Assembly: GCA_013822735.1 (NCBI GenBank)
Contig: PNKZ01000014.1
Span: forward strand, 1-64,000
DNA: 64,000 bases
Direction: 5' to 3'
Source of the DNA: Pirellula sp.
Lineage (GTDB): Bacteria > Planctomycetota > Planctomycetia > Pirellulales > PNKZ01
How positions within the stretch are numbered: position 1 is the stretch's first letter; each line of letters begins with the position of its first letter. The notes beneath the pieces were generated by a model, which was given only the letters and a program-made list of their open reading frames with translations, ran no database searches and was not told the origin of the DNA. The position numbers were made by a program, and so were the translations under genes. This document shows, piece by piece, positions 10,881 through 62,993 of the stretch.

Positions 10881-13800
10881 ATGCATTCTCCTGACAGAAC
10901 TTTGCCCATCGAAATGACCCAACGGCAAACACCAATTGGTCGACGCGCGACCGGTGACGTTCGACGACGCAAATCATTACGCGCCCTTGGCGCCATTTGT
11001 TCTGCACTGCTCACAACATCTTCACACGCCGCGAATACGCTCGTCGTGGAGGCCCCGCCTCGATCACCGGCCGAACAGCTGGAAGCCTTTCATTTACCTC
11101 CGGGCTTCACAATTCAACTTGTCGCCGCCGAGCCCGTCGTGAAAAAGCCGATCAACTTGGCGTTCGATGATGCCGGCCGACTTTATGCGACGGGCTCGAT
11201 CGAGTATCCGTTTGCGGCAACGGATCCTGCCAAGGCACGTGACGTCGTCACGCGTTTGGAAATAGGTTCAAACGGCGCTATCACTCATCGTGCCGTTGTC
11301 GACCGACTGAATATTCCAATCGGCATCGCCTCACTCGGCGACGAACTCTTGGTGTACGGCATTCCGGAGTTACTACGCTGTCGTGATGGCGACGGTGAGG
11401 GCATGTTCGAGGTTCGCGAACCGCTCGTGCGTGGTTTCGGCTTTCGCGATACTCACGGCATGGTGAACGGACTCGCGCCGTGGATCGACGGCTGGGTCTA
11501 TTCTTGCCACGGCTTCTCCAATGAATCAAAGGCTGAAGGAACCGACGGTTCGCAACTCACGATGCAGTCGGGCAACACATTCCGCTGGCGCCATGACGGT
11601 TCGCACGTCGAGCAATATACGCATGGGCAAGTAAATCCCTTCGGACTCGCGTTCGACGAATGGGGACATTTATTCTCCGCCGATTGTCACACGCTCCCCG
11701 CATATCAATTACTTCGCGGCGCGTGGTATCCAAGTTTCGGCAAACCTCACGACGGCTTGGGCTACGGCCCGTCGATCATGAGCCATGCGCATGGCTCGAC
11801 CGGAATCGCAGGCATCGTCTATTACGACGCGGAACAGTTCCCGCCCGATTATCGCCGCACGCTGTTTATCGGCAATCCGATCACCGGCCGGATCAACCAT
11901 GACCGACTCGAGCGGGCCGGCGCCTCGTATCGGGCAGTTGAGCAACCCGATTTTCTGACCTGCGACGATCCGTGGTTTCGACCGGTCGACCTCAAACTCG
12001 GCCCCGACGGAGCGCTGTACGTCGCCGACTTTTACAACTGCATCATCGGCCACTATGAAGTGCCGCTTGATCATCCGCAGCGTGATCGCGAGCGCGGACG
12101 GATTTGGCGGATCAGCTATACCGGCAAGGGCGCTAATCAGGCTCGTGTTGTGATGCCGAACTTACGAGATGCCCCCGTATCGCAGCTCGTCGAACATCTC
12201 GGCGACGCCAACATCACGCTACGGACGCAGGCCGTCACCCGACTAACCATGCGAAGGTTGTCGTCGACCGAGCTGGCCGAGTTGCGAGCGATTGCAATGG
12301 ATAGCGGAGCACCGCCGTTGCAGCGCGTCGGAGCGATGTGGGTCGTTGAAAGATCACAGCCAAACCTGCTCGAAAAGATTGCGATCCGTCGCTTGGTCGC
12401 CGATAGCAACCCACTCGTCCGTACGCATGCCGCTACGGTTTTGGGGGAGCGATCGAACGACCGTTTCGATCGAGAAGACGGCGAGACGTTGCGGATAGCA
12501 CTGAAAGACAACGAGGCATTTGTTGCGTTGGCCGCCGCTGAAGCATTGGCGAAGCATCCGTCGGACACCGGCATCCCAGAATTGCTCGAGGTTCGACAAG
12601 GCGTCCCAGCAGGCGACGTACAACTCGCGCATGCCCTGAAGATTACGCTGCGCCAGCAGCTCGCCTTACCTAAAGCGTTGACATCCTTGGAAGAATCGGC
12701 GATTGCGAGTCACCGCGGTCAGATTGCCGACATCTGCCTCGGCATTCCTTCGCAAGATGCAGCTTCATTCCTCCTGCAAAAGATCCTATCGAACGCGACG
12801 CCGGAGCAACGTTTCGACGGTCGGTTTGTCGAACATGTTGCTCGCCATTTAAACAAGGCTCAACTGCCGGACTTATATGCCGTTGGCGGCGAAATCAAGG
12901 ATACGGAACTGCGGTTGGTTTTCTATCGGAGTCTCGGCAACGGCCTCAGCGCCCGCAAAGTGCCGATCCCTGACGCGGCGCAACAGGCCATGAATTCCAT
13001 TGTACGAACGTTCCTTGCCGACAAAGACGAAGCACTGCAGAAGCGAGGGCTGGATCTCGCCAAAGAGCTTCGGCGGCCGGAACTCTTCGGCGATGTAAGG
13101 CCGCTCACGGCGAAGAGCCGCGGCGTTCCAGCGTTGCGGACCGCCGCGTACGAGGCCTTGGCAGCGTGTGACCCGGCCCAAGCTACACCCATTCTCGTTG
13201 CCTTGCTTAACAATGTCGCGGAGCCGACGCATCTACAATCGCGGGCTGTGCAATTGCTGAGCGGATTCAATACGACCTCGGCGCGCGAAGCGCTATCGGC
13301 TCGCGGCGTCACCGCTTCCGACCGTTTGGCCGCCGAGATTGCCGCCGGATTGGCCGTTTCGAAAGAGGGGGCCGAGCTGCTCCTGACCGCTGTGGCCGCC
13401 GGTAAGATGTCGGCACGAGTTTTACAGGAGCCGCCGGTGCAACTCTGGTTCAGTCGTTCGCAACCGCAGGATTTTGTCGCGCGCGTCGCCGTACTTACCA
13501 AGGGACTGCCGCCGGCAGATGATCGGCTCAAGAAGCTCATCGCCGCGCGAGTAGCTGCTTTTGGCAAAACTACGCCGGACTCCGTTCGGGGCGAAGCCCA
13601 CTTCCAAAAGACATGTGCGGCCTGCCATCGCATCGGCGAGCGCGGTAACAAGATCGGACCGCAGCTCGACGGCGTCGGTCGCCGCGGACTCGAGCGATTG
13701 CTGGAAGACATCCTCGACCCGAATCGCACAGTGGATCAGGCGTTTCGAGCGACGCAGTTTACGCTTGTCGATGGTCGGATTCTGACAGGCCTTGTCGTTC

Positions 13801-14006
13801 GGCGCGAGGGCGATGTCGTCGTCGTGGCCGACAGTCAAGGGAAAGAGCAGCGACTAAGCAACGACGATATTGAGGCGCAAAGCGTCTTACCGCTTTCGCC
13901 GATGCCGGCAAACGTCGGTGAAACTTTGAGCGAACGCGAATGCCTGGAACTCGCGGCCTTTCTCATGAAACAAGAGCAACCGATGATCATGGACAACGCC
14001 AAATAG
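10881..14006 (+). CDS. PVC-type CxxCH heme protein with dehydrogenase-like and HEAT domains
   Basis: The 1041-residue exported protein has a signal peptide ending near SSHAA (about residue 51). Next is a beta-propeller-like putative membrane-bound dehydrogenase domain (about 65-415; FHLPPGFTIQLVAAEP and YVADFYNCIIGHYE). Alpha-helical HEAT-like repeats follow (about 430-890), then a C-terminal heme domain with CAACH (about 912-916) and the tail LVVRREGDVVVV...LAAFLM. This architecture is a planctomycete/verrucomicrobial family linked to periplasmic oxidation of sugars or other compounds; the substrate is unknown. The ATG at 10881 has only a weak ribosome site; ATG at 10914 is possible. It is divergent from the glucan operon, with 247 bp between them, and 101 bp upstream of a thioredoxin-fold gene on the same strand. 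Confidence 0.85.
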   Translation: MHSPDRTLPIEMTQRQTPIGRRATGDVRRRKSLRALGAICSALLTTSSHAANTLVVEAPPRSPAEQLEAFHLPPGFTIQLVAAEPVVKKPINLAFDDAGRLYATGSIEYPFAATDPAKARDVVTRLEIGSNGAITHRAVVDRLNIPIGIASLGDELLVYGIPELLRCRDGDGEGMFEVREPLVRGFGFRDTHGMVNGLAPWIDGWVYSCHGFSNESKAEGTDGSQLTMQSGNTFRWRHDGSHVEQYTHGQVNPFGLAFDEWGHLFSADCHTLPAYQLLRGAWYPSFGKPHDGLGYGPSIMSHAHGSTGIAGIVYYDAEQFPPDYRRTLFIGNPITGRINHDRLERAGASYRAVEQPDFLTCDDPWFRPVDLKLGPDGALYVADFYNCIIGHYEVPLDHPQRDRERGRIWRISYTGKGANQARVVMPNLRDAPVSQLVEHLGDANITLRTQAVTRLTMRRLSSTELAELRAIAMDSGAPPLQRVGAMWVVERSQPNLLEKIAIRRLVADSNPLVRTHAATVLGERSNDRFDREDGETLRIALKDNEAFVALAAAEALAKHPSDTGIPELLEVRQGVPAGDVQLAHALKITLRQQLALPKALTSLEESAIASHRGQIADICLGIPSQDAASFLLQKILSNATPEQRFDGRFVEHVARHLNKAQLPDLYAVGGEIKDTELRLVFYRSLGNGLSARKVPIPDAAQQAMNSIVRTFLADKDEALQKRGLDLAKELRRPELFGDVRPLTAKSRGVPALRTAAYEALAACDPAQATPILVALLNNVAEPTHLQSRAVQLLSGFNTTSAREALSARGVTASDRLAAEIAAGLAVSKEGAELLLTAVAAGKMSARVLQEPPVQLWFSRSQPQDFVARVAVLTKGLPPADDRLKKLIAARVAAFGKTTPDSVRGEAHFQKTCAACHRIGERGNKIGPQLDGVGRRGLERLLEDILDPNRTVDQAFRATQFTLVDGRILTGLVVRREGDVVVVADSQGKEQRLSNDDIEAQSVLPLSPMPANVGETLSERECLELAAFLMKQEQPMIMDNAK

Positions 14007-14107
14007 TCGGCGCTGAAATAATATTGCAGATCCTGCGTAACCGACCGCGTAGCGCGGCATCCGAGTGTTTGGCCGGAACACGCCTCACGCTCTTGGAGAC
14101 CTTCGCC

Positions 14108-14698
14108 ATGCGTATGCAGAATATTCGATCGCTCGTTGCCTTAGTATTCCCCCTTGCGGCCTTCGCAAGCGCCGCTTGTTCGTCGGAGGGCGTTGTTGCC
14201 CAGGCCCCCGGAAAGACGCCGGCCGTCGGCGATGCTGCGCCTGACTTCCGGTTGCCGACTCCCAATGGTCAAGTGGTTCAGCTTTCCGAACTTGCGAAGG
14301 CCGGCCCAGTCGTCGTTGTGGTCTTACGAGGGTTCCCCGGTTATCAATGCCCCGCATGCAACGCACAGACCGGGCAGTTCTTTGCGGCCGCTGAAAAGTT
14401 TCAAATGTCGAAGGCTCAAGTCGTGTTTGTATATCCAGGCCAACAATCCGGACTTGCCCGACGCGCAGGCGAGTTTCTTCAAGGCAAAATGATTCCCGCC
14501 GGAATGCACGTCGTCCTCGACCCGGATTACTCACTGACGAACCTCTACGGGCTGCGTTGGGACGCCGTGCGGGAGACCGCTTATCCGGCAACCATCGTCG
14601 TCGATAAGGCCGGAACGGTCCGCTTCATTGAAGTGAGCAAGAGCCACGGCAACCGCATTTCCGCGGATAAAGCGATCGAAGCCGTATCGAAGCTCTAG
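14108..14698 (+). CDS. Exported peroxiredoxin/thioredoxin-fold protein
   Basis: The 196-residue protein has a Sec-type signal peptide (about 1-23) with a cysteine at 24 (ASAAC), so it may be a lipoprotein, though the lipobox is not ideal. The mature part begins with the AhpC/TSA signature GDAAPDFRLPTPNGQ and carries CPAC at 81-84 in GFPGYQCPACNAQ. Such proteins reduce peroxides or disulfides in the periplasm. The start is the first of two close ATGs, with GGAGA upstream. It probably shares a transcript with the heme/HEAT gene 101 bp upstream. Confidence 0.85.
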   Translation: MRMQNIRSLVALVFPLAAFASAACSSEGVVAQAPGKTPAVGDAAPDFRLPTPNGQVVQLSELAKAGPVVVVVLRGFPGYQCPACNAQTGQFFAAAEKFQMSKAQVVFVYPGQQSGLARRAGEFLQGKMIPAGMHVVLDPDYSLTNLYGLRWDAVRETAYPATIVVDKAGTVRFIEVSKSHGNRISADKAIEAVSKL

Positions 14699-14753
14699 CG
14701 GGGCCGTTTGGAGCGATCATGACGGTGGCACCGCCGGCCAAAGGTTGTTCACT

Positions 14754-14781
14754 TTGACTACCGTGTCCCTAATGGTACATC
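14754..14781 (+). promoter_or_regulatory. Possible promoter of the pseudopilin gene
   Basis: TTGACT (14754-14759) and TACATC (14776-14781) are 16 bp apart, just upstream of the pseudopilin gene. The -35 match is good and the -10 match poor, so this is tentative. Confidence 0.3.
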
Positions 14782-14799
14782 ACTTCTGGGGACCTAATT

Positions 14800-15243
14800 A
14801 TGGCATTATCTCGAAACAGAGCGTTCACACTGATTGAAGTGATGATCGTGGTTGTCGTGCTCGGCATCATTGCCGGTGCCGTGATCCCGCAGTTTCAAGA
14901 CAGTGCAAAGAATGCGAAATCAAACACGACGAAGTTCAATTTGCGCATGCTTCGGGAGCAGTTGCAGGTTTACTCAAACGATCACGAAGGACGTAAACCG
15001 GCGACGCTCGATGTCCTAACCAAGCAAACGAACTCGAGCGGTGTCGCAGGGACGACATCCGCATTCCCTTACGGACCGTATGTCGTGGTGCTACCGGTGA
15101 ATTCCCTCACTGGAAGCAATTTCGTGCGAGTCGCGGCGAATAATCCGCCGGCCGCCGCTACAGGTGCTGACGACGCTGGTTGGCTCTATCACGCCGCGAG
15201 CGGCGGCGTTTGGATCGACGACGCGGACTTGCTCGGCGAGTAG
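14800..15243 (+). CDS. Type II secretion-like major pseudopilin
   Basis: The 147-residue protein starts with a class III prepilin signal, RNRAFTLIEVMIVVVVLG: basic leader, cleavage before Phe9, Glu at mature position 5, then the hydrophobic helix. The residue before the cut is Ala rather than the usual Gly. After the helix comes a GspG-like pattern (IPQFQDSAKNAKSN...LREQLQVYSNDH). It would be cut and methylated by a prepilin peptidase and assembled into a pseudopilus. No other secretion genes are nearby, as is common for scattered planctomycete pseudopilins. GGGGA precedes the ATG. Confidence 0.85.
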   Translation: MALSRNRAFTLIEVMIVVVVLGIIAGAVIPQFQDSAKNAKSNTTKFNLRMLREQLQVYSNDHEGRKPATLDVLTKQTNSSGVAGTTSAFPYGPYVVVLPVNSLTGSNFVRVAANNPPAAATGADDAGWLYHAASGGVWIDDADLLGE

Positions 15244-15268
15244 ATCGCGCGTCGGCTTGTCCCGCGAA

Positions 15269-15619
15269 TCAATTCTTGACGCGATAGCCAAGGTTGCGCA
15301 AGTGCGTCGCAACGCGTTCCGCATGGCTTCCTTGAATCTCGATAAGATCGTCGCGAACGGTCCCGCCTGCGCCACACGCGTTCTTGAGCTGCGCAAGTAA
15401 CGCAGCGAAATCGCTTTCCGCGGGAACCAGCCCGCGAACGACGGTGACGCGCCGCCCGCCGGGACGCTTCTCCTCAGTGACCCGCGCCGACTGTTTCTCG
15501 GGCGCCAGCCAAACCGGCGGCGGTACTGGAGGCGGCGGGCAGTGGCATTCGGCCTCAAGTAGTCCGCAACGTTCACAACGCGGCGGACGATCCCATTGGG
15601 TGCCTTCAAAGAGTCGCAA
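15269..15619 (-). CDS. SUI1/YciH-type translation initiation factor
   Basis: The 116-residue protein has a C-terminal SUI1 (eIF1) domain (about 45-116; RRVTVVRGL, GGTVRDDLIEIQGSHAERVATHLRNLGY). Bacterial YciH proteins bind the ribosome and can influence start-site fidelity. The N-terminus adds a small cysteine cluster, RCERCGLLEAECHC, which could bind a metal as a zinc ribbon. It converges with the pseudopilin gene, 25 bp apart. Confidence 0.85.
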   Translation of the reverse strand: MRLFEGTQWDRPPRCERCGLLEAECHCPPPPVPPPVWLAPEKQSARVTEEKRPGGRRVTVVRGLVPAESDFAALLAQLKNACGAGGTVRDDLIEIQGSHAERVATHLRNLGYRVKN

Positions 15620-15648
15620 TGGTGTATCTTCCTTTAAGGCTGTGAGTA

Positions 15649-15855
15649 GTGAATCGGACGCTCGAAAGGAGTGTATTCAACACTCTTCACGATTGCCTCT
15701 ATGTCTCGCAGAACGGCAATGATCTCTACGTCAACTATCAAGCGGCAGCCGTGTCGGAGCCCGGCAGCATGTTGTTGGTGAGCATCGCCGGATTGCTTAC
15801 ATGGCTACAACGACGTTGGCGCAAGAAGCAAGCAGAAGCCGCGGCCGCTCAATAG
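15649..15855 (+). pseudogene. Orphan PEP-CTERM sorting tail, probable gene remnant
   Basis: The 68-codon frame encodes the end of an exosortase target: NGNDLYVNYQAAAVSEPGS, then a hydrophobic helix (MLLVSIAGLLTWLQ) and a basic end (RRWRKK). This is the PEP-CTERM pattern, with SEPGS in place of the usual PEP. Full proteins of this class are hundreds of residues with a signal peptide; here neither is present. I therefore read it as the 3' remnant of a deleted surface protein gene. A very short independent protein is less likely. Confidence 0.6.
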
Positions 15856-15886
15856 ACTGCCGAACAAGATCTCGCGCCCTTGGCGG

Positions 15887-16525
15887 CTAACGTGGTGTCG
15901 TAACCGGCGGAGCGTAGGGACTTGGCTGCAACGGGTATCCCGGCAGGCTAGGCTGCGGCGTCGCACCGTAGGGGGATGCCGCCGGAGCGGCTTGAGGCTG
16001 CGTCAGAAAACTCGGGGGGGCGATCATCCCCGGCGCAGAGATTCCCTGCGGTGCTACGTTCGCCGGAATGGTTGCCGCTGGCGGGGCGACATTGCTGCGA
16101 CGCAAATCTTCGGCACGCGTCAGCAGCGTGTCCGTCGGTACCACGTATTGCGGCTGCATCTGATAATCGAACTGCCGTTCGTCGCGTATTTCAAACGGCC
16201 AAAGGTTCTCAGCAAAGAAGTCCAAGCCCGGCCATTGATACCACGGCGCGCTTACCGGTTGTACGACCGTCTGCGTTTCGTAGCCGTCTTTTACCAAACG
16301 AATCGTGCGATCTCCGTAATAGATAAAGTCGGTCGAAACCGGCGTGCGCCCTACTTCGTAGTTGTCGACGTAAACCTGAGCTCCGGGAACGTTCGTCCGC
16401 ACGGTCATCCTGCGCTGTACGCAACCGCCGGAACTAGCGACGGCAATGGTTAACTCCGCGACCAGCAATATCGCAATGATTCGTCCACGACGAAGCGCGA
16501 GCGGTACGAAAAATGAAGGCGACAT
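15887..16525 (-). CDS. PEGA-domain envelope protein
   Basis: The 212-residue protein has a membrane-targeting N-terminus (about 12-35) ending in SSGGC, a possible lipoprotein site. A PEGA domain follows (about 38-80; TVRTNVPGAQVYVDNYEVGRTP ending VKDGYE). The tail is rich in Pro, Ala and Gln (from about 140). PEGA domains are extracellular beta modules often linked to surface proteins. The start at 16525 is the ATG directly before the signal-like segment; the frame is open further upstream to 16801, but that part looks non-coding and overlaps the divergent phosphatase. Confidence 0.75.
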   Translation of the reverse strand: MSPSFFVPLALRRGRIIAILLVAELTIAVASSGGCVQRRMTVRTNVPGAQVYVDNYEVGRTPVSTDFIYYGDRTIRLVKDGYETQTVVQPVSAPWYQWPGLDFFAENLWPFEIRDERQFDYQMQPQYVVPTDTLLTRAEDLRRSNVAPPAATIPANVAPQGISAPGMIAPPSFLTQPQAAPAASPYGATPQPSLPGYPLQPSPYAPPVTTPR

Positions 16526-40309: not shown

Positions 40310-43300
40310 CTACTTCGTGCCCGTCGCGACAGGCTGCGGCGTCTTCGCCTTGGCCGGATCGTCCCACTTGATCTTGCAGTTGGGCAGGGCTTTTTGCAGG
40401 GCGGCGATACTCGACGGTGGCACGTTGATGTAGTAGAGCTCTAGATTTTCGAGGGTTTTACAATCCTCTAAGGGAGTCAGATTATCGATCTTCGTCAACT
40501 GAATGCTCAAGTTTCGTAGTGGCATGCCCCGGAGCGACGACAAGTTACGAATCCTCGTCTCTCGAAGATCCAGTATTTCTAACGGCATTTCTTGGAAAGG
40601 TGTGAGATCGGATATTTTTGTGTACGAGCCATTGAACTGGCGCAACTGCAATCCTTGCAGAGGTGAAATGTCGGACAACTTGCTGATGGTCGGACTCGAA
40701 CTCCAGCAACTGAGATTTTTCAGGCCGGAGAAAGCTCTTACTGGTGAGATGTCTTGAACGTGATCGCATTGAACCCAAACGGCGACGACCCCGCCATTCT
40801 CGATCCGAGGATTCTTGCCGCCGTAGGGATTCTGAATTGCCCCATCAAACCCCGGATTCAACTCCATCAGTTTCTTGCTGACAGCTTCGATTTGCCGCTC
40901 GGCACTCATCGTCTGCACATCCTTCATCCACTGCGGGAAAGCGGGGTCGTGCATGAAGAGTTTGGCGGATGCGGACGGGGAGGCGGTATTCAATGAGCCG
41001 TCCAGCGGCGTTAGCTGCGGATCGATCATCGCCAGAGCGCTCGCCGTGGTAACCCTCAGTGCATCCACGACGATCTTCAATTCCCGAACTCCGCGCACGT
41101 CCACCACTAACGGAAAGCCGGCCTCCTTAACCGTCGTGAGGTTAACGCTTCGGATTAGCGATCGATCATCGCCAACAACCTCGATAAATAACGGAGCGCT
41201 CCGGTTGTGACCGCAGCGAACAGTCGCTTTGAACGACGTATAGCGACCTCCTAGGTCATACACGATACGGCCTACATCCTCCTCGCGAGGATGCAGAATC
41301 AAGCCATGCGCAGGCGGTTCCCCTGTCCCGCGAAACACCCCCTCTTTCCACGCTTTCACAAAAGGTTGCGTTCCTGCCCAAGCAAGGAACGACCCGTAGC
41401 TGGATGTCTCGGCCAGATCGTCGAGATAGATGACTTCTTGAGCGACGGCGGGCTGCGGCGTGACGCTCGCCGTGCTTGACGAAACTCCTAACGCGCCAAG
41501 GACAGGGCGAAAGCCACGGTGGTAGAAGCGGATCGACGGGGCGGTGTGGTGCCGGTACGACGACCGGCTGCTGGCGGGCATGCTGTCCCAACCGCCGCCC
41601 CGATTCACCCGGACCGAGACCCCACTGGGACCGGTGGGATCGTCCTGCGGCGAATTCTGGTACCACGTGACGTAGTACCAGTCTTGGCACCACTCCCACA
41701 CGTTGCCGTGCAGGTCGTACAAACCAAATGGATTGGCCGGAAGCGAACCGACCGCGTGAGGCCGACCACCTGCGTTCTTGTTCGACCAACCGTACTTGTC
41801 CAACTCTTTCCAGTCATCGCCGAACGAATACTGCGTGGGCGTGCCAGCCCGACACGCATATTCCCATTCTGCCTCGGTCGGGAGCCGGTAGCCATTCGCC
41901 TTCGGTAGCAGCGTCCAATTATCGGCATCGCGTTGGTAGTAAGGTTCCAGCTTCTCCTGTTCGCTCAGCCAATTGCAAAAAGCCACGGCGTCGTTCCAGC
42001 TGACTTGCGTCACCGGTGAATCATCGGTGACAGGTTGGCCAGGAGTACGCCAATTCAGCTTCAGGCTGTCGGGGTTCACTTCTTCCAGTTTGACCGTGCC
42101 TGAATTGCCGCCGAATTCTTCGGCCTGCGTCTTGTACTTCGCTTGCTCGACGAACTTGGCAAACTGCCCGATCGTCACCTCGTGGGCTGCAAGACGAAAC
42201 GGTTTGGTGATCCGTACAGTATGCTGCGGGCGTTCGGTTTGAATCCGTTTCACGGCGTTTTCGTCAAGCTTTGCTTCTTCCGCGATCTTCAACGCCAGCT
42301 TGATATCTTCGTCGGAACTTCCCATCAGGAATTCACCGGGCGGGATCAGCGTCATTTGCATGCCGACGCTGTTCGGCTTGACGACTTCGGTGCCCAGATG
42401 CTTGGCCCAGGCTTGTTGATGGGCCTTGGCTTGAGCGGCGTCGAAGGGGGCGACGGCGAGGGGCGGTTGCGGGCCGGAGGGCTTGGCCACCGGCGGCGGC
42501 GTTACGACGGGCGGCGTGGAAGTGGTGACGCTCGCCGTCGCTGACGGGGCTCCTACCGAACTAAGGGCAGGACGAAAGCCACGGTGGTTGCCGCGGTGCG
42601 ACGGGGTGAGGCCGTTGGAGATGCCCCGGGACGACGACCGGCTGTTGCCGGGCATGTTGGACCAACTGCCGCCCCGAAACACCCGGTTCGAGGCCCTGCT
42701 AGGACCAAGGGGATCGTCCTGCGGCGATTCCTCGTACCACTTGCCGTCGTACCAGTCTTGGCACCACTCCCACACGTTGCCGTGCATGTCGTACAGTCCA
42801 AACGGATTGGCCGAAAGCAAACCGACCGCGTGAGGCCCATTGCCCGCGTTCTTGTTCGACCAACCGAATTTGTCGTGCTCTTTCCAATCATCGCCAAACC
42901 AGAACTGCGTCGCGGTTCCAGCCCGGCACGCATATTCCCATTCCGCTTCCGTCGGGAGCCGATACCCGTTCGCTTTCGGCAGCAGCGTCCAAGTGTCGCC
43001 ATCGCGTTGGTAGCAGGGTGTTAGCTGCTCCTGAACGCTCAGCCAGTTGCAGAATTCCACCGTATCGTTCCAACTGACTTGCGTCACCGGCGAATCATCC
43101 GTGACCGATTGGCCAGGGGTACGCCAGGTCAACTTCAGACTGTCGGGCTTCACTTCTTCCGACTTGACCGTGTATGAATTGCCCCCAAACTCTTCGGCCT
43201 GCGTCTTGTACTTTGCTTGCTCGACGAACTTGGCGAACTGGCCGATCGTGACTTCGTGGGCCGCTAGCCGAAACGGCTGCGTGATTCGTACCGTATGCTG

Positions 43301-46300
43301 CGGGCGTTCCTCTTGGATTCGCTTCACAGTAGCTTCGTCAAGTTTCGTCACTTCTGCGATTTTCAACGCCAACGCAATGTCCGCGTCCGAACTCCCCATC
43401 TGGAACTCACCGGGCGGGATCAACGTCATTTGCATGCCGATGCTATTCGGCTTGACGACTTCGGTGCCCAGATGCTTGGCCCAGGCTTGTTGATGGGCCT
43501 TGGCTTGAGCGGCGTCGAAGGGGGCTTTGGCGAGGGGAGGGATGGGGCCGACTGGTGTCGCCGTCGGCGGCGGTATTTCGACGGGCCTGGTAGAAGGCGA
43601 GACGCTCGTCAATGAAGTCGAAAGCCTCGCATGAGCTAAGGCGACATGACTCGCGAACGTTCGTTTGCGGGCGTCAATGACGAGCTTGAGTTCTTTCACT
43701 CCGCGCACGTCGGCCGTCAATGCGGCGCCGTCCGCCTTCACCGTCGTCAGATCGACGCTGCGGGCGAGAGAGCGCCCGTCGCCGATGAGTTCGACGTAAA
43801 GAGGCTCTTGGCGATCGCTGGCACAGTGCGCAACTGCTTCGAACGACGTATAGCGCCCGCCTAAATCGTAGGTCAGGCGAGCTTCATCATCTTTCTTGGG
43901 ATGGAAGATCAAGCCGTGGGCTGGTGGAGTTTCCGGTCGCTTTACGGCCGACTGCCATTCATTCGCGAACTGTTCCGTTCCGGCCTTTTGCAGGAGAAGC
44001 CCGTGGAACGAAGTCTCCTTCAATTCATCGAGATAGACGCCGGCGAAGTTAGGAGCGAGCGAGGATTTCGATGTTGAGGCGGTAGCGGCGACCGGAGTCT
44101 TCGGCACCCGGCGGATCAGGCGGATCTCGCCGGCTCCTTCCTCTTGTTCGCTCGCAGAGCGATTGTCTAAATACAGCGTTGCGCCGTCGGGCGTGAGCCA
44201 ACACTTATGTGTCTTCAAACTTGGCGGTAAGGAAACCGGACGCAGATCGTAAGCCCCGTGGGCATCCGGCGCGGCCAAGAATAGCTCTTGGTTGCGACTG
44301 AGCAAGATCGTCTTGTTATCGCCAAGAATCTGAGCCGCTCGCTCATCTTTCACGCTGTTGACGTTGCTTCCCAGACTGACCGGAGTTCCCCAGCCGGCTT
44401 GGAGATCGGCACGATGAGAGATCCAAAGGTCGATGCCGCCAAGGCTACCAGGGCGATTGGAAGCGCCGAACACCAGCGTCAAGCCGTCGGGCGAGATCAC
44501 AGGCACATCTTCGCTCTCCAAGGTATTCAAAGTCGCTAGCGGCGTGACCGGGCCCCAAGGCGTATCCCGACTTGTGCGAGTGCGGACGACGAGTTCACGA
44601 TTCGTCTTACCATCCGCTCGCTTGGCTCCCTCGCTTTTTGAAAACAGCATGAGCCCGGCCGAATCAAGCGAGGGATAATCTTGATTGCTGTCGGACAGTT
44701 GTTTCACCGCACTCCAAGGTTCCGTGATGGTTTGTCGGCGGTACTCATACAGCCCGGTCCGCTTATCGCCCGTACCAAAAGAATTCAGTGCGATCAGGCA
44801 GAGTTGATCGTCGCTAAGCGTCGGCGCTACGTTCCAATTGCCGGCGTTGACCACGGGCCCGAGCGATTCCGGCGCGCTCCACTCGTAGTCGTCCGAGAGG
44901 AGCCGTTCGATTTGGGAGAGGCTGCGGGTTGGGGGCTGGAGGCCAGTTGCCTGCGGCGATGCGGGCACGGCAATTGGCAGCACCACGCGGCCGAATCCGC
45001 AGAAGGCATGCTTAGTCTTGTTGTACCGCCCACCGTCGCTTGGAAGGCGTGCGAAACTGTTGATGACGTTGCGATCCGATCCGCCGCCGGCGAACTGGGA
45101 GCCGCCGCGCTGAATACGGTAGGTACCCGTGTCCTGTCGGGGATCGTCGCGAACGGCTAGTACCGCGGGGGAGTACGGCGTTCGTTCGCAGGCATCCCAG
45201 CACCATTCGCTCACACCGCCATACAGACCGACGAGGCCGAAGGGATTGGGTAAGGAGAACTTCTCCATAAAATCCTTGCCGACGCCGTCGTGGCCGAAGT
45301 GCCAGAGCGTGTCGGTTCCTGCGCGGCAGGCGAATTCCCATTGGGCCTCGGTCGGCAGACGGTAGCCGTCGGCATCGTCGATCGGCGTGACTTGCTCCCC
45401 TTCGATCCGATACGCGGGCCGCATTCCTTCACGCTCGCTCAGTTTGTTGCAAAAGGCAATCGCGTCGGGCCACGCCACATGACTTTGGAGCGGCTTGTTC
45501 GGTTCTTGTTCCATCTCGGGTCGCAGTTGCCCGACAACGTCGCGAAAGCGGCCCGCCGTCAATTCTTCGACTTCCAGATAAAACGGCCGCGTGATCCGCA
45601 CCGGATGCGCCGGTCGGCAGCGGGCGAAACCTGCGTCCAGTCCTTTAGGCGGCGCGATGATCCGCGTCAGCTCTTCGTCGGTGAACTCGGGGCCGAGGCC
45701 CATTTGGAACTCGCCCGGCGGAATGAGCCGGAACTTCATGCCCAGGCCGTTCGTGAACTCGACCGGCACGCCGAGATACTTGGCCCACGCTTCTTGATGC
45801 TTCGTCGCCGTTGCCGCATCGAACGGAAACACGGCGAGCGGCGGGGCGTCCGCCGCGGATGAATTCAAATTGGAGATCTGAGATTTCGAATCCGCAACCG
45901 GCGTCAGCCGCGGATCAATCCAGAGCACGTTCCCAATTTGTGTGGAATTCTCCGTTCGTAAGCGAAGCGACAACTCTCGTACGCCCCGAACGTCCACATC
46001 GATTTGTGCGCCCGACGGCTTGAGAGGAACGAGGTCGTCTGATTTCCAGAGCAACTTCCCATCGCCCCACACTTCGGCAAAGATCGGAGGTCTTCGCGTG
46101 GGACGACAAAGTACGGTCGCTTGAAATCGTGCGTAGGTTCCGGCAATCTCATAGTCGACGTGTGCTTGGTGCTTGTCCGTCGCCAATTCCGGCAAGGGAT
46201 GAAACGCTAGCGAATGCTTCGTCGGCTCGAAGCCGAAATTGGCGATCAACTCGTTGAAATCGGCGGAATTCTTGCCGGCCTTCTTCGGCGGCATCCGAGC

Positions 46301-47968
46301 CGCGACTGACTTCTCGGGCAGGTCGTCGAGATAGACGACGGCTGCGGGGCTAGCGGCGAGTGATGCAGTCGATGGTGCGGCGGTAGCGACTACGGCCGGC
46401 GTAGTCGGCACGCTCTGCGGCTGTGCGGCGGTACCCTTCGGAGCGGCGGCGGCAATTGTGCCGTCCGGCTTGACCTGCACCGATCCGCCTGCGGGCGGCT
46501 TCACTTCGGCGGTGTTCCCATCAGCAACCTTCACTTCCGCAACGGTCTCGCCCTTGTCGTTCTTGATCACGAGGATCACGCCTAGGAGCACGAACAAGAA
46601 CCCGGCGGCACCGGCCGCGATGAGCTTCACCGGCGGCTTCTTGCCTCCCTTGCCGCCGGACTTGTGCTTCGGCACAGTCGGGCTCGGCTTAACGCCGGTC
46701 AGCGGTACCACGACTTGGCTCTTCGGATCGGTGCCGATCTCCGCATGCGAACTCGACAATGTCGCTTCCGGGCCTGACAGGCTCTTGAGCGGCCGGTTTC
46801 CCAAGGCTTCGGTCAGGTCGTTGACGGGCATCGTCTGCGAACCGCTCGGACTCGCACCGGAGGAACTCTTCTGCATGGCGCCGAAGAATTGACTCAGAGC
46901 CGGATCGTTCGTCGCGGCGGAAGGGGAGGAGAAGGAGGTCGTCGCACCGGGGTTGCGCCAAGCCTCTAACTCGGCCACGACCTGGGCCGCTTGCTGGTAA
47001 CGATCATCAGGACGTTTGGCCAGCATCTTCTGGAAGATGCGGTCGATTTCGGCGGGGCAATCTGGTCGCTTGCTTTGGAGCGATGGAATAGGATCGCCCA
47101 TGTGGGCCATGATCTTCTGCACGACCGTCTCGCCGCCGAAGACGCTCTCGCCGGTGAGCAGGCGATACAGCGAGCAGCCGAGGCTATATACGTCGCTGCG
47201 GGCATCTGCCTTGCACGTGTCGTTGGCTTGCTCCGGCGGCATGTAATCGACCGTGCCCATCACCGCGCCGGTGTTGGTGAGTTGATGGTCGGCCGTGTTG
47301 CCGTCGTCGATGCGAGCCAGGCCCATATCGAGAATCTTCACCACCCCTTTTTTGTCGAGCAGCAAATTGGCGGGCTTGATGTCGCGATGGACCACGCCTT
47401 CCGCATGCGCAAAAGCCAGACCGCGAGCCGCTTGCAGGATGTAGTCGACGGCATCGTTGACTGGCAGCGGTCCGTTCTGCTTCACAAGCGCCGAAAGGTC
47501 TTGCCCGTCGACGCACTCCATCACCATGAAGTGGATGCCCCGACACTCGTCGGCGTCATACGTCTGCACAATGTTCGGGTGGGTGAGCTTGGCTGCCGCT
47601 TCGACCTCACGTTGAAATCGTTTGACGGCGCCCTCGTCTTTCGTAAGGGCGGCAGGCAAGAGCTTGATCGCCGCCAGGCGCTTCATCTTGCGATGTTGGG
47701 CCTTGAACACCTGGCCCATGCCCCCCGCGCCGATCTTGCTCAACAGGACATACTGATTGAGCACCAGCGGCGTACCACCGCCGGAAAGCAACTCTTGTGC
47801 TTGGAACGGACTGAGTCGTCCTTGCTTGATGAGTAGCGAAGAGAAGGTCTCGCCGTCCTTCGGACGGTCGTTAGCGGGTAGAGCCGTCCATAACGCCTTC
47901 ACTTCCTCAGCGGTCAGCAGACCTGAAGCGACGAGCGATTTACCGAACTGATCGATGGAGACGGCCAT
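40310..47968 (-). CDS. Giant Ser/Thr kinase fused to NPCBM, FGE-fold, beta-propeller and LRR modules
   Basis: The 2552-residue protein starts with a ~65-residue domain (ALWTALPANDRPKDG) found before many planctomycete kinases, then a Hanks-type kinase (about 70-335; GAGGMG loop, HRDIKPANLL, DMG in place of DFG). One membrane helix follows (about 447-468). The distal part, presumably periplasmic, has NPCBM-like domains (about 545-686, 1309-1450, 2178-2318), three FGE/sulfatase-modifying-factor folds (about 727-998, 1497-1801, 1857-2158), a PD40-like beta-propeller (about 1027-1293), and C-terminal leucine-rich repeats (about 2390-2535). It looks like a receptor kinase with carbohydrate-binding sensors. 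FGE modules 2 and 3 are a recent ~1.07-kb duplication. No partner gene lies on its strand nearby. Confidence 0.9.
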   Translation of the reverse strand: MAVSIDQFGKSLVASGLLTAEEVKALWTALPANDRPKDGETFSSLLIKQGRLSPFQAQELLSGGGTPLVLNQYVLLSKIGAGGMGQVFKAQHRKMKRLAAIKLLPAALTKDEGAVKRFQREVEAAAKLTHPNIVQTYDADECRGIHFMVMECVDGQDLSALVKQNGPLPVNDAVDYILQAARGLAFAHAEGVVHRDIKPANLLLDKKGVVKILDMGLARIDDGNTADHQLTNTGAVMGTVDYMPPEQANDTCKADARSDVYSLGCSLYRLLTGESVFGGETVVQKIMAHMGDPIPSLQSKRPDCPAEIDRIFQKMLAKRPDDRYQQAAQVVAELEAWRNPGATTSFSSPSAATNDPALSQFFGAMQKSSSGASPSGSQTMPVNDLTEALGNRPLKSLSGPEATLSSSHAEIGTDPKSQVVVPLTGVKPSPTVPKHKSGGKGGKKPPVKLIAAGAAGFLFVLLGVILVIKNDKGETVAEVKVADGNTAEVKPPAGGSVQVKPDGTIAAAAPKGTAAQPQSVPTTPAVVATAAPSTASLAASPAAVVYLDDLPEKSVAARMPPKKAGKNSADFNELIANFGFEPTKHSLAFHPLPELATDKHQAHVDYEIAGTYARFQATVLCRPTRRPPIFAEVWGDGKLLWKSDDLVPLKPSGAQIDVDVRGVRELSLRLRTENSTQIGNVLWIDPRLTPVADSKSQISNLNSSAADAPPLAVFPFDAATATKHQEAWAKYLGVPVEFTNGLGMKFRLIPPGEFQMGLGPEFTDEELTRIIAPPKGLDAGFARCRPAHPVRITRPFYLEVEELTAGRFRDVVGQLRPEMEQEPNKPLQSHVAWPDAIAFCNKLSEREGMRPAYRIEGEQVTPIDDADGYRLPTEAQWEFACRAGTDTLWHFGHDGVGKDFMEKFSLPNPFGLVGLYGGVSEWCWDACERTPYSPAVLAVRDDPRQDTGTYRIQRGGSQFAGGGSDRNVINSFARLPSDGGRYNKTKHAFCGFGRVVLPIAVPASPQATGLQPPTRSLSQIERLLSDDYEWSAPESLGPVVNAGNWNVAPTLSDDQLCLIALNSFGTGDKRTGLYEYRRQTITEPWSAVKQLSDSNQDYPSLDSAGLMLFSKSEGAKRADGKTNRELVVRTRTSRDTPWGPVTPLATLNTLESEDVPVISPDGLTLVFGASNRPGSLGGIDLWISHRADLQAGWGTPVSLGSNVNSVKDERAAQILGDNKTILLSRNQELFLAAPDAHGAYDLRPVSLPPSLKTHKCWLTPDGATLYLDNRSASEQEEGAGEIRLIRRVPKTPVAATASTSKSSLAPNFAGVYLDELKETSFHGLLLQKAGTEQFANEWQSAVKRPETPPAHGLIFHPKKDDEARLTYDLGGRYTSFEAVAHCASDRQEPLYVELIGDGRSLARSVDLTTVKADGAALTADVRGVKELKLVIDARKRTFASHVALAHARLSTSLTSVSPSTRPVEIPPPTATPVGPIPPLAKAPFDAAQAKAHQQAWAKHLGTEVVKPNSIGMQMTLIPPGEFQMGSSDADIALALKIAEVTKLDEATVKRIQEERPQHTVRITQPFRLAAHEVTIGQFAKFVEQAKYKTQAEEFGGNSYTVKSEEVKPDSLKLTWRTPGQSVTDDSPVTQVSWNDTVEFCNWLSVQEQLTPCYQRDGDTWTLLPKANGYRLPTEAEWEYACRAGTATQFWFGDDWKEHDKFGWSNKNAGNGPHAVGLLSANPFGLYDMHGNVWEWCQDWYDGKWYEESPQDDPLGPSRASNRVFRGGSWSNMPGNSRSSSRGISNGLTPSHRGNHRGFRPALSSVGAPSATASVTTSTPPVVTPPPVAKPSGPQPPLAVAPFDAAQAKAHQQAWAKHLGTEVVKPNSVGMQMTLIPPGEFLMGSSDEDIKLALKIAEEAKLDENAVKRIQTERPQHTVRITKPFRLAAHEVTIGQFAKFVEQAKYKTQAEEFGGNSGTVKLEEVNPDSLKLNWRTPGQPVTDDSPVTQVSWNDAVAFCNWLSEQEKLEPYYQRDADNWTLLPKANGYRLPTEAEWEYACRAGTPTQYSFGDDWKELDKYGWSNKNAGGRPHAVGSLPANPFGLYDLHGNVWEWCQDWYYVTWYQNSPQDDPTGPSGVSVRVNRGGGWDSMPASSRSSYRHHTAPSIRFYHRGFRPVLGALGVSSSTASVTPQPAVAQEVIYLDDLAETSSYGSFLAWAGTQPFVKAWKEGVFRGTGEPPAHGLILHPREEDVGRIVYDLGGRYTSFKATVRCGHNRSAPLFIEVVGDDRSLIRSVNLTTVKEAGFPLVVDVRGVRELKIVVDALRVTTASALAMIDPQLTPLDGSLNTASPSASAKLFMHDPAFPQWMKDVQTMSAERQIEAVSKKLMELNPGFDGAIQNPYGGKNPRIENGGVVAVWVQCDHVQDISPVRAFSGLKNLSCWSSSPTISKLSDISPLQGLQLRQFNGSYTKISDLTPFQEMPLEILDLRETRIRNLSSLRGMPLRNLSIQLTKIDNLTPLEDCKTLENLELYYINVPPSSIAALQKALPNCKIKWDDPAKAKTPQPVATGTK

Positions 47969-60350: not shown

Positions 60351-62993
60351 ATGTCGCTCGCCAAGTACCGCCGCAAACGCGATTTCCGCAAAACGGCCGA
60401 GCCGTCGGGCGCGAAGCGGCCCGCCAAACACGGCAACTCGTTCGTCGTGCAGAAACACGCCGCGAGTCACCTGCACTACGACTTTCGACTCGAGCTCGAC
60501 GGGGTTCTCAAGAGTTGGGCCGTGCCGAAGGGTCCGAGCCTTGACCCCGGCGTGCGGGCGTTGGCCGTAGAGGTGGAAGACCATCCGGTCGAGTATGGCG
60601 GTTTCGAAGGGATCATTCCGGCCGGCGAGTACGGCGGCGGCACCGTGATGCTCTGGGATCATGGAACCTGGGAATGCCTCGGCAATGCGGCGCGCGACTA
60701 CAAGGCGGGCCGCCTGCATTTCCGCTTGCAGGGCGAAAAACTCTCCGGCGAATGGACCCTCGCGCGAATGAAGACCGAACGCGGCCGCGCCCAATGGCTG
60801 CTGATGAAACGGAGCGACGACTCGGCCCTCCGCGGCGACGAACACGGCTTGCTGGAGCGCGAAGATCGCAGCGTAGCGACGGGGCGGACGATGGAACAAA
60901 TCGCCGCTCAGTCCGATCGAGTGTGGGGCAAAACGGGCGAAGTCGAGCAGCCGAAGGCAAATCGCAAGAAGCAATCATCGAAGAAAGTCAAACCCGAGCG
61001 ATCGTCGAGAGTCGAGTTGCTCCGGGGAGCCAAGAAACACCGGGCTCCAAAAACGCTCGCGCCGCAGTTGGCCACGCTCGCCACGGCGGCTCCCGACGGT
61101 GACCAATGGCTGCACGAACTCAAGTTCGACGGCTATCGTCTCCTCGCCTTCGGCGACGGCACGCGCGTGCGGCTCCTCACGCGCAACGGGAAAGACTGGA
61201 CCCGCAAATTTCCCCGCATTGCGGAGCTGCTCCAGGAGTGGAAGTTCGACGGCATCATGGACGGCGAACTCGTCGCACTCGACGACGCCGGAGCTTCCAA
61301 CTTTCAGAAACTCCAAAACGCCATTCGCAACGGCTCGCAAAACAGCCTCATCTTCTACGCCTTCGATCTACCGTTCTTCGCCGGGTACGATCTGCGCGAA
61401 GTTCCGCTAGAGCAGCGCAAGGAGCAGTTGGCAAGCTTGGTTAAAGAGCATGCACGATCGCAGACCGGCCCGATTCGACTGAGCGAACATTTGGAAGGGG
61501 ACGGCGCCGAATTTCTGAACACGGTTTGCCGCCGCGGTTTGGAAGGCATCGTCTGCAAGCGGCGCGATGCGCCGTATGCATCGCGCCGTTCGCCGAATTG
61601 GCTCAAAGTGAAATGCTCCGGCCGACAAGAATTTGTGATCGGCGGGTACACGCGGCCCGGCGGCTCGCGAACCGGCTTCGGCGCGCTCTTCTTGGGCTAC
61701 TTCGACGACCGCGGCGCGCTCCGCTATTGCGGCAAGGTGGGCACCGGCTTCAACACTGCGACCCTCAATGTGCTCAAGCGCCAACTGGATGACTTAGCGA
61801 CGGACGAATGTCCGTTTGCTTCGCCGCCCGTCGAGGCGACACGCGGTAAACCGACGTGGGTCGAGCCGAAACTCGTGGCCGAAATCGAATTTACCGAATG
61901 GACCGAAGACGGCGCCCTGCGTCATCCGTCGTTCCAAGGGTTGCGAGAAGACAAGGAGGCGTTGGACGTGGTGCGAGAAGTGAAAAGCGTACGCAAGCCG
62001 CGGGCGGAGCTACGACAAGCGGCGGCCGCGAGGTCATCGACGCGAAACTCGATGCTGCGAAAATCCGCGCAGCGCATATCCGCCCAAAACGAAGCAGTGG
62101 AGGTCGCCGGCGTGCGGCTGACGCACCCCGATCGCATCCTTTATCCCGATGCGAAACTCACAAAGCGCGACGTCGCACAATATTACGAGGCCGTGGCCGA
62201 TTGGATCTTGCCGTATGTTACCGAGCGTCCGCTCACCATCGTTCGCTGCCCCGAAGGACAGTCGGGCGAGTGTTTCTTCCAAAAGAACTGGAAGAACACG
62301 CTTCCTGCGCAGGTGGGCAAAGTGGCGGTGCGCATTGATTCCGGCAAGCAAGACTATGTGATGATCGACGACGTCGCGGGACTCGTGGCGCTCGTCCAAG
62401 TGGGGGCCTTGGAGTTTCATCCGTGGGGTTCGAAAAAGCCTCGGCTCGAAACGCCCGATCAGATCGTGTTCGATCTCGATCCCGGGCCGGGCGTCGCGTG
62501 GAGCGGCGTTCGCAGCGCGGCCCGTGAACTACGAGTCGTGCTCGAGGAACTCGGCCTGCAATCGTTTGTGCGGACCTCCGGCGGCAAAGGCCTGCACGTC
62601 GTCGTGCCGCTCACGGGCCGCAACACTTGGGAGCAAGTGAAGACGTTTGCCCACGATATCGCATTCGGTATGGCACGACACAAGTCCGACACGTATGTGA
62701 GCACGATGTCGAAAGACTTGCGTAAACGGAAGATATTTATCGACTATTTGCGCAACCAACGGGGGGCGACTTCCGTGGCGAGCTACTCCACGCGCAATCG
62801 CGCCGGTGCCCCGGTCGCAACGCCCGTCGCCTGGGAGGAACTCGGCCGACTGCGCGGCCCCGCCCAGTTCACCGTGGCCAATGTGCCGGCCCGACTGAAG
62901 CGTTTGAAATCCGACCCGTGGCAAGAGTTCTTCAAGACGCGCCAATCTCTGTCGAATGAGTCGCTCCGCGCCGCGCGCGGTTGGAACGAGTGA
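60351..62993 (+). CDS. ligD: Multifunctional DNA ligase LigD
   Basis: The 880-residue enzyme has the order phosphoesterase-ligase-polymerase. The 3'-phosphoesterase domain (about 20-190) has FVVQKHAASHLHYDFRLEL. The ATP-dependent ligase (about 235-545) has KFDGYR with catalytic Lys258. The primase-like polymerase (about 583-870) has VFDLDPGPG with its metal-binding DxD and RTSGGKGLHVVVPL. This order is as in Pseudomonas LigD and unlike Mycobacterium. It processes, fills and seals ends held by Ku. A basic linker (about 205-235) joins the first two domains. Confidence 0.95.
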   Translation: MSLAKYRRKRDFRKTAEPSGAKRPAKHGNSFVVQKHAASHLHYDFRLELDGVLKSWAVPKGPSLDPGVRALAVEVEDHPVEYGGFEGIIPAGEYGGGTVMLWDHGTWECLGNAARDYKAGRLHFRLQGEKLSGEWTLARMKTERGRAQWLLMKRSDDSALRGDEHGLLEREDRSVATGRTMEQIAAQSDRVWGKTGEVEQPKANRKKQSSKKVKPERSSRVELLRGAKKHRAPKTLAPQLATLATAAPDGDQWLHELKFDGYRLLAFGDGTRVRLLTRNGKDWTRKFPRIAELLQEWKFDGIMDGELVALDDAGASNFQKLQNAIRNGSQNSLIFYAFDLPFFAGYDLREVPLEQRKEQLASLVKEHARSQTGPIRLSEHLEGDGAEFLNTVCRRGLEGIVCKRRDAPYASRRSPNWLKVKCSGRQEFVIGGYTRPGGSRTGFGALFLGYFDDRGALRYCGKVGTGFNTATLNVLKRQLDDLATDECPFASPPVEATRGKPTWVEPKLVAEIEFTEWTEDGALRHPSFQGLREDKEALDVVREVKSVRKPRAELRQAAAARSSTRNSMLRKSAQRISAQNEAVEVAGVRLTHPDRILYPDAKLTKRDVAQYYEAVADWILPYVTERPLTIVRCPEGQSGECFFQKNWKNTLPAQVGKVAVRIDSGKQDYVMIDDVAGLVALVQVGALEFHPWGSKKPRLETPDQIVFDLDPGPGVAWSGVRSAARELRVVLEELGLQSFVRTSGGKGLHVVVPLTGRNTWEQVKTFAHDIAFGMARHKSDTYVSTMSKDLRKRKIFIDYLRNQRGATSVASYSTRNRAGAPVATPVAWEELGRLRGPAQFTVANVPARLKRLKSDPWQEFFKTRQSLSNESLRAARGWNE

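Follow-up and report, generated by a model that had tools for sequence, protein, structure and literature searches.

The window (the whole stretch of 64,000 nucleotides of Pirellula sp. DNA that was analysed) carries, according to the listing of its open frames, a single uninterrupted open reading frame of 2552 aa at 40310-47968. The frame is real in the length and position given by the first-pass annotation, to which the minus strand has to be added. Its features are as follows.

40310..47968, minus strand: receptor-type Hanks Ser/Thr kinase gene, 2552 aa, ATG to TAG (open frame and Pfam)
46982..47752, minus strand: protein kinase domain, aa 73-329, cytoplasmic (Pfam and motifs GAGGMG, AAIK, HRDIKP and DMGLA)
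46565..46621, minus strand: single transmembrane helix (TM), aa 450-468, preceded by a Lys-rich stretch (hydropathy and sequence)
45899..46336, minus strand: NPCBM module 1 (Pfam, 36.0 bits against a cut-off of 23.9)
44993..45727, minus strand: FGE-fold module 1 (FGE1), diverged, its end unlike a variable region (Pfam, sequence)
44069..44941, minus strand: propeller-like segment with one PD40 repeat, weak (segment Pfam; a 73% identical segment in G001:C57)
43604..44041, minus strand: NPCBM module 2 (Pfam, 43.1 bits)
42569..43432, minus strand: FGE-fold module 2 (FGE2), C-type lectin, TvpA-like (sequence comparison)
42573..42697, minus strand: VR-A, a variable region of the type written by a diversity-generating retroelement (DGR), at the FGE2 end (the template repeat of locus L093 matches it in blastn at E 2.4e-23; adenine-directed pattern)
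41501..42358, minus strand: FGE-fold module 3 (FGE3), C-type lectin, TvpA-like (model pLDDT 90; Z 30.7 to 2y3c, tied with PvdO)
41508..41622, minus strand: VR-B, DGR-type variable region at the FGE3 end (matched by the L093 template repeat in blastn at E 1.0e-21; adenine-directed pattern)
41060..41326, minus strand: NPCBM module 3, which together with the LRR has near-identical DNA in the congener G001 (Pfam, DNA comparison)
40379..40981, minus strand: leucine-rich-repeat-like (LRR) C-terminal module, below the Pfam cut-off (Pfam, DNA comparison)

The modules follow one another in the order kinase – TM – NPCBM1 – FGE1 – propeller-like – NPCBM2 – FGE2 – FGE3 – NPCBM3 – LRR. A Pfam search with the whole protein recovered the kinase domain (E 8.7e-52), whose catalytic motifs are intact on inspection, as well as FGE-sulfatase (E 1.4e-132) and NPCBM (E 3.2e-28), each in three stretches; all three NPCBM modules and FGE1 also exceed the curated cut-offs when scanned as separate segments. 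The helix has a Kyte-Doolittle mean of 2.78 (1.47 for the next best segment) and is, by hydropathy, the one transmembrane helix between the kinase and the sensor part, which is the layout of a receptor-type Hanks kinase. A Lys-rich stretch before a membrane helix usually marks the N-terminal side as cytoplasmic, and hydropathy alone predicts an outer location of the modules. Pfam, the one strong helix and the segment scans thus give good support to the earlier description of a receptor-type kinase with a large outer part, and its three NPCBM and three FGE modules are confirmed. The beta-propeller and the leucine-rich repeats listed along with them fared less well: the PD40 repeat is borderline (E 0.02 with the whole protein as query; as a segment, 21.5 bits where the cut-off is 20.9), the propeller-like segment reached only pLDDT 36 in a single-sequence structure prediction and matched no solved structure in a PDB sequence search at E up to 1, and LRR_4 stays below its cut-off (21.8 versus 27 bits). 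The identity of both segments is weakly supported.

The three genes downstream encode aspartate kinase, phosphoglycerate mutase and homoserine dehydrogenase, and no candidate partner was found among the upstream neighbours. Conserved operon partners were rejected: the downstream genes belong to amino-acid and sugar metabolism, and the homologue in the congener G001 sits in another context. Elsewhere in the window (60351-62993) lies a LigD with phosphoesterase, ligase and C-terminal primase-polymerase domains, a protein of bacterial end-joining repair.

A match to the protein was present in 57 out of 57 genomes searched (the source genome included), mostly to the kinase part among the matches listed. 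From 20 regions with related kinases, one kinase frame was scanned with Pfam in 17 (L064, L069, L070 and the second L058 frame being left out), and these frames carry other mixes of LamG, 3keto-disac_hyd, PD40, NPCBM, FGE, LectinC and LRR. Kinases with related N-terminal halves bear differing outer parts in the source genome as well as in G001-G003 and G005. For example, further kinase frames of the source genome combine PD40 and NPCBM (1721 aa), LamG, 3keto-disac_hyd, NPCBM and LectinC (3815 aa), NPCBM with weak PD40 and LRR (1287 aa), or LamG, FGE and LRR (1652 aa); the 3815-aa frame (L052:2708-14152) is bigger than the window gene. The nearest homologue among the matches listed, in G001 of the same genus (G001:C257, JAFLCO010000033.1, 30993 bases), reads kinase-TM-NPCBM-LectinC-FGE-NPCBM-LRR-LRR, with a LectinC and a single FGE in mid-protein and a second LRR module, while, among the matches listed, FGE1 and the propeller-like segment of the window protein come closest to a different G001 kinase, located on C57 (63% and 73%). 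The first-pass annotation had regarded the module order as a system not described before and proposed to look for the same order in relatives; none of the 17 scanned frames has the module set of the window protein, and the novelty of the order falls. Judging from these comparisons, the window kinase is a member of a shuffled family that has no defining module order.

Compared with G001:C257, the DNA of the window gene is 83.3% identical over the kinase and 77.6% over the FGE3 body, whereas identity climbs immediately past the variable region, to 100% in the linker, 97.6% in NPCBM3 and 98.6% in the LRR. This step in identity points to a recent exchange between the two genes, with its joint at the variable region. 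The same step is seen when L055:4764-10211 (minus strand, G001:C257) is compared with window positions 40310-41500, where identity rises from 73-78% to 98-100% after the variable region. The flanks of the two genes are not syntenic over the 16-20 kb compared.

FGE2 and FGE3 share a 300-base block of 84% identity. Their bodies differ at 29/26/77 sites of codon positions 1/2/3 (62 silent and 42 replacement codons in 281), whereas their last 40 codons differ at 11/12/1 (1 silent, 16 replacement). With shifted borders the counts become 28/25/77 for the body and 12/12/1 for the end (Fisher p 1e-7), and the most extreme 40-codon window of the body holds 13 position-1/2 differences as against 24 in the end. 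The first 40 codons likewise have just 2 third-position differences, apparently a sign of local homogenisation elsewhere in the modules too, there without many replacements. Four control pairs of stand-alone FGE genes from two families, picked by hand after their conserved tails had been seen, gave tails of 5/4/20, 7/10/22, 2/0/13 and 4/2/13. An unpicked survey covered the FGE modules of 40 regions (L051-L090; 37 matches, 30 with a recognisable end) together with the two of the window and counted 24 pairs with a body identity of at least 60%, among which the tail of the window pair ranks lowest for the share of third-position differences (12/12/2 with the borders of the survey). It is followed by pairs formed within the modules of the G002 kinases (L058, L059, L060) and by the pairs between G001 and the window; for instance, the two FGE modules of L059 give 47/36/81 in the body and 17/16/8 in the tail, and L058 versus L060 gives 35/32/81 and 18/18/10. 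Intermediate values come from pairs that include L054 or the last L060 module, several tails of other kinase-borne FGE pairs of the genus have a third-position share of 0.34-0.43, and stand-alone FGE genes show the opposite pattern (0.55-0.87). The codon-position mark may therefore extend, less cleanly, to other receptor kinases of the genus. The G002 kinases L058, L059 and L060 have two or three FGE modules and are possible further DGR-written receptors.

A template for such an end exists in another organism. Locus L093 (REEF01000975.1, from the Planctomycetaceae MAG PLM2.Bin2) encodes a kinase-TM-FGE protein, an HRDC protein (Pfam 2.9e-19), which we take to be an accessory of the DGR, and a DGR reverse transcriptase (RT; IGSLTSQ...YMDD), and it holds a template repeat. 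The receptor has a helix score of 2.31, its single FGE is 70% identical to FGE3, and its variable region (VR) ends three codons short of the stop. All cassette parts lie within 4.5 kb (L093:1-7434), which makes this the cleanest model for a DGR-diversified receptor kinase among the loci here; one scan of viral contigs returned no relative of its RT that would speak for a phage origin. Template and VR of L093 differ at 13 adenine and 0 other positions in 70 bases, and over the whole repeat at 15 of 29 adenine columns and 1 of 86 others, with one 3-base gap.

Against this foreign template, mismatches fall on 15/31 adenine and 7/87 other columns in VR-A (p 5e-6), on 15/29 and 7/86 in VR-B (p 2e-6), on 16/29 and 15/84 in the G001 VR (p 2e-4), and on 11/29 and 9/85 in the VR of L092 (p 3e-3), a further kinase-TM-FGE receptor with such an end; these Fisher tests treat columns as independent. 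Six of the seven non-adenine mismatches are common to VR-A and VR-B, as expected if the template once used for the window gene differed slightly from that of L093. When VR-A and VR-B are compared with each other, the L093 template only naming the columns, they differ at 21/29 template-adenine columns and 2/86 others (p 1.7e-14), i.e. differences are confined to template-adenine columns as in a DGR variable region, with the template of another organism as reference. All ten pairs among five VRs go in the same direction (weakest p 2e-4). On the other hand, comparison with L093 gave no adenine bias in the bodies of FGE2 (47/203 adenine, 173/634 other positions), FGE3 (49/203, 174/634) and the G001 FGE (54/203, 168/634). 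In length, FGE2 exceeds the L093 template by six bases and FGE3 by nine, within an AAC-rich stretch, and the VR of L093 itself has three bases fewer than its template. Taken together, the pattern at the ends of FGE2 and FGE3 has the appearance of the mark of a DGR.

The fold is consistent with such a role. TvpA (2y3c), a DGR variable protein of Treponema denticola, is the top PDB sequence match of both FGE3 (2.5e-26) and FGE2 (1.4e-24), with FGE enzymes behind. The FGE3 model (pLDDT 90, from a 19-row alignment) superimposes on 2y3c at Z 30.7 (rmsd 2.1, 246 residues aligned), a score that PvdO (5hha) equals, and according to this model the VR of FGE3 is set in a C-type-lectin fold. A Foldseek search with FGE3 put FGE enzymes first and 2y3c ninth, so that DGR proteins cannot be told apart by fold alone. 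In human FGE, a role of Cys 336/341 has been described (PMC6328139). The active-site cysteines of an FGE enzyme near the C-terminal end are missing here: the variable ends (aa 1755-1805 and 2112-2160) contain no Cys, and FGE1 has one at aa 960-1000, in the context HAFCGFG. FGE chemistry by the ends of FGE2 and FGE3 is unlikely, because these variable ends are without cysteine.

The machinery itself was not found in the assembly of the window (99.06% complete, 38 contigs). PF00078 detects two RTs there, both of the QGxxxSP type; these (L039 and L040) were rejected as DGR RTs on their QGAPSSP and QGSALSP motifs, and the L093 RT as a query matches just one of the two, weakly (4e-9). RTs related to that of L093 at E<=1e-25 occur in 25 out of 396 genomes of the order and in none of the seven genomes of the window's family (G000-G006). 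G006 (75% complete) has a weak match (8e-9) to the L093 RT, and an RT on G002:C66, about 6 kb from an FGE protein, reads QGNPLSP, which is not of the DGR type. A pattern search allowing up to 3 mismatches (the L093 template itself has 1 to the pattern) and blastn with the L093 template matched in the assembly only VR-A and VR-B. A DGR adjoining the gene or elsewhere in its assembly was thus rejected, as neither of the two parts of a complete cassette, RT of this type and template, was detected. Moreover, the VRs are internal (aa ~1758-1799 and ~2116-2154 of 2552), not C-terminal; DGR variable regions usually occupy the C-terminus, presumably owing to the homing signals located downstream of them (PMC8144416). 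The element may have been lost or may reside in an unassembled part or on another replicon; alternatively, the modules may have been written before they were acquired.

Our main reading, to which we assign a probability of about 0.75 and which covers active and frozen sites alike, is that the gene encodes a transmembrane Ser/Thr kinase receptor with two TvpA-like C-type-lectin-fold modules whose ligand-facing ends were written by a DGR. The RT would copy the template repeat, erring at adenines, and the copy would replace the variable region. A ligand would then meet the variable faces of FGE2 and FGE3, a step for which fold and variation both speak; NPCBM and the other modules may provide reach or glycan contact, and the signal would pass through the membrane helix to the kinase, as in receptor kinases in general. 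Binding of varied ligands (phage, cell-surface or matrix molecules) with an effect on the inner kinase is predicted.

Whether the sites are still being rewritten is a separate matter. FGE2 and FGE3 may be frozen relics, captured already diversified from C-terminal DGR targets like that of L093 and fused into a larger receptor that now has two fixed sites. This state concerns present activity and is compatible with writing by a DGR. We put it a little short of an even chance, given that searches of the assembly recovered neither RT of this type nor template and that the VRs are internal; they lack the usual intergenic context, whereas the VR of L093 stops three codons before the stop, and the sharp mosaic joint between G001 and the window just after the VR points the same way. 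Against it stand the silent codon changes: because the bodies have 62 in 281 codons and the VRs 1 in 40, the VRs would have been written after the FGE2 and FGE3 bodies split. Low silent change in the VRs would, however, equally result if two modules had been captured from a single DGR family.

Two readings dispense with DGR-written sites. One, after the first-pass annotation, is a sensor of fixed specificity for complex polysaccharides whose signal is phosphorylation, and both the three NPCBM modules, which make polysaccharide sensing possible, and the C-type lectin and LamG modules of sister kinases agree with it; it nevertheless leaves the variable regions unexplained, the module set varies between congeners, and the variable regions of both FGE2 and FGE3 speak for recognition that can change rather than for one fixed glycan, so that we consider it improbable. 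Ordinary diversifying selection on a ligand-binding face, or short-segment exchange among paralogues, might account for the intermediate tails of other kinase-borne FGE pairs, accords with the missing DGR and draws on a mosaic exchange that does occur in the kinase family, yet it is the least credible reading, since selection should leave silent changes in step with the body instead of a single third-position difference, a foreign template predicts the variable columns, and in stand-alone FGE genes of the genus the pattern is the reverse.

The proposed DGR-written receptor has relatives with machinery at hand. In a whole-protein scan of 79 loci (from the best 80 of 591 stretches), 7 loci have an RT with the DGR motif (8 matches in 170 sequences read, by a regular expression that can miss divergent ones). 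Template/VR pairs were found in all 7 and in 0 of 6 other loci scanned likewise. Among the best 80 of 591 stretches, these 7 loci hold 12 FGE targets, 6 with a kinase in the same frame: one each in L093 and L119, one of two in L127 (whose second frame is cut by the contig end) and three in L158, the kinase being confirmed by Pfam in L093, L119, L127 and one L158 frame and the remaining frames being assigned by similarity to the window kinase and FGE. A hydrophobic segment between kinase and FGE is clear in L093, L127 and L158 and marginal in L119. The three kinase-TM-FGE targets of L158 (89-2806, 9779-11902 and 16691-19396) lie on a Desulfobacteraceae contig with two RT copies. Two of their VRs are identical over the 70 bases shown, which may be due to an extensive duplication or to the assembly. 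L158 has a fourth template/VR-like pair (10 adenine and 1 other, minus strand), which was left out of the count, as it is not in an FGE end.

A survey of 30 regions across the order gave 20 FGE targets with template-matched VRs in 14 regions; L198, L217 and L219 have a pair but no FGE ORF, and 13 regions have no pair, several being cut by contig ends. Three of the 20 targets carry a kinase, each with an nSTAND1 domain in between. These kinase – nSTAND1 – FGE proteins (L208:1-4722; L214:1538-7771 and 12163-16473) have template-matched VRs and adjoining DGR-related RTs and come from other families of the order; the two of L214 use one common template. Two VRs per chain also occur in L206, L211 and L213, i.e. 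two-VR proteins are not unique. L195:10458-14012 (minus strand) combines EAD1 (below cut-off), trypsin, NACHT (just below) and an FGE with a template-matched end, a sensor of the conflict-system type.

The ingredients of the window gene are published separately. In cyanobacteria, DGR variable proteins that join a Hanks-type Ser/Thr kinase to a C-terminal DGR-diversified C-type lectin domain (CLec) have been described (Vallota-Eastman 2020, PMC7517822); according to that account, remote targets dispersed in the genome are common and most of the proteins are predicted to be cytosolic, some having membrane or signal segments. The window protein, in contrast, combines one membrane helix and two internal VRs with NPCBM and further outer modules, and its assembly yielded no RT of the DGR type. 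Among the Planctomycetota kinases surveyed by Odelgard 2024 (PMC11032199), the sulfatase-modifying-factor domain ranks third in abundance among accessory domains and is mostly periplasmic in single-span kinases; the kinase-TM-FGE architecture with a single span and an outer FGE is common to both, and the excerpted parts of that account mention neither DGRs nor variable regions. DGR-diversified putative antigen sensors of conflict systems (Dore 2024, PMC10907252; Kaur 2020, PMC7159879) likewise have FGE-subtype CLec ends written by DGRs, and a legend to a figure of targets names a Pkinase domain, but the targets as described are centred on STAND/NACHT NTPases and MoxR-vWA systems, many of them predicted to be cytoplasmic (PMC10907252, PMC7159879). 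TvpA, the best sequence match of FGE2 and FGE3 and, tied with PvdO, the top structural match of FGE3, differs as a single-domain protein without a kinase (PMC6328139), and a Nodularia DGR with an FGE-sulfatase target has been reported (PMC3610870). Kinase-CLec DGR targets in cyanobacteria, kinase-TM-FGE proteins in Planctomycetota and DGR sensors in conflict systems are therefore already known. A membrane-spanning planctomycete receptor kinase with two internal, DGR-written outer modules was not found among the papers that the literature search listed and appears new; in that literature, mostly without subscription papers, preprints and supplements, we found no DGR-diversified planctomycete receptor kinase, and one may exist in print.

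Beyond the single gene, we see about even odds for a class of bacterial transmembrane receptor kinases with DGR-hypermutated extracellular binding sites, through which a lineage would re-tool its sensing. The window gene would be a two-module member, probably written in trans or before the retroelement was lost, L093, L127 and L158 would be members with adjoining machinery, and the G002 kinases L058, L059 and L060 may join them. The finding links the large, unexplained receptor kinases of planctomycetes to a mechanism that changes binding sites on purpose, and L093 offers a small unit with all parts for asking whether DGR rewriting alters receptor signalling. If true, the FGE domain of planctomycete kinases would in part be a diversifiable ligand module, not a sulfatase activator, what these receptor kinases sense would become testable, and they would be a bacterial equivalent of variable immune receptors, coupled to phosphorylation.
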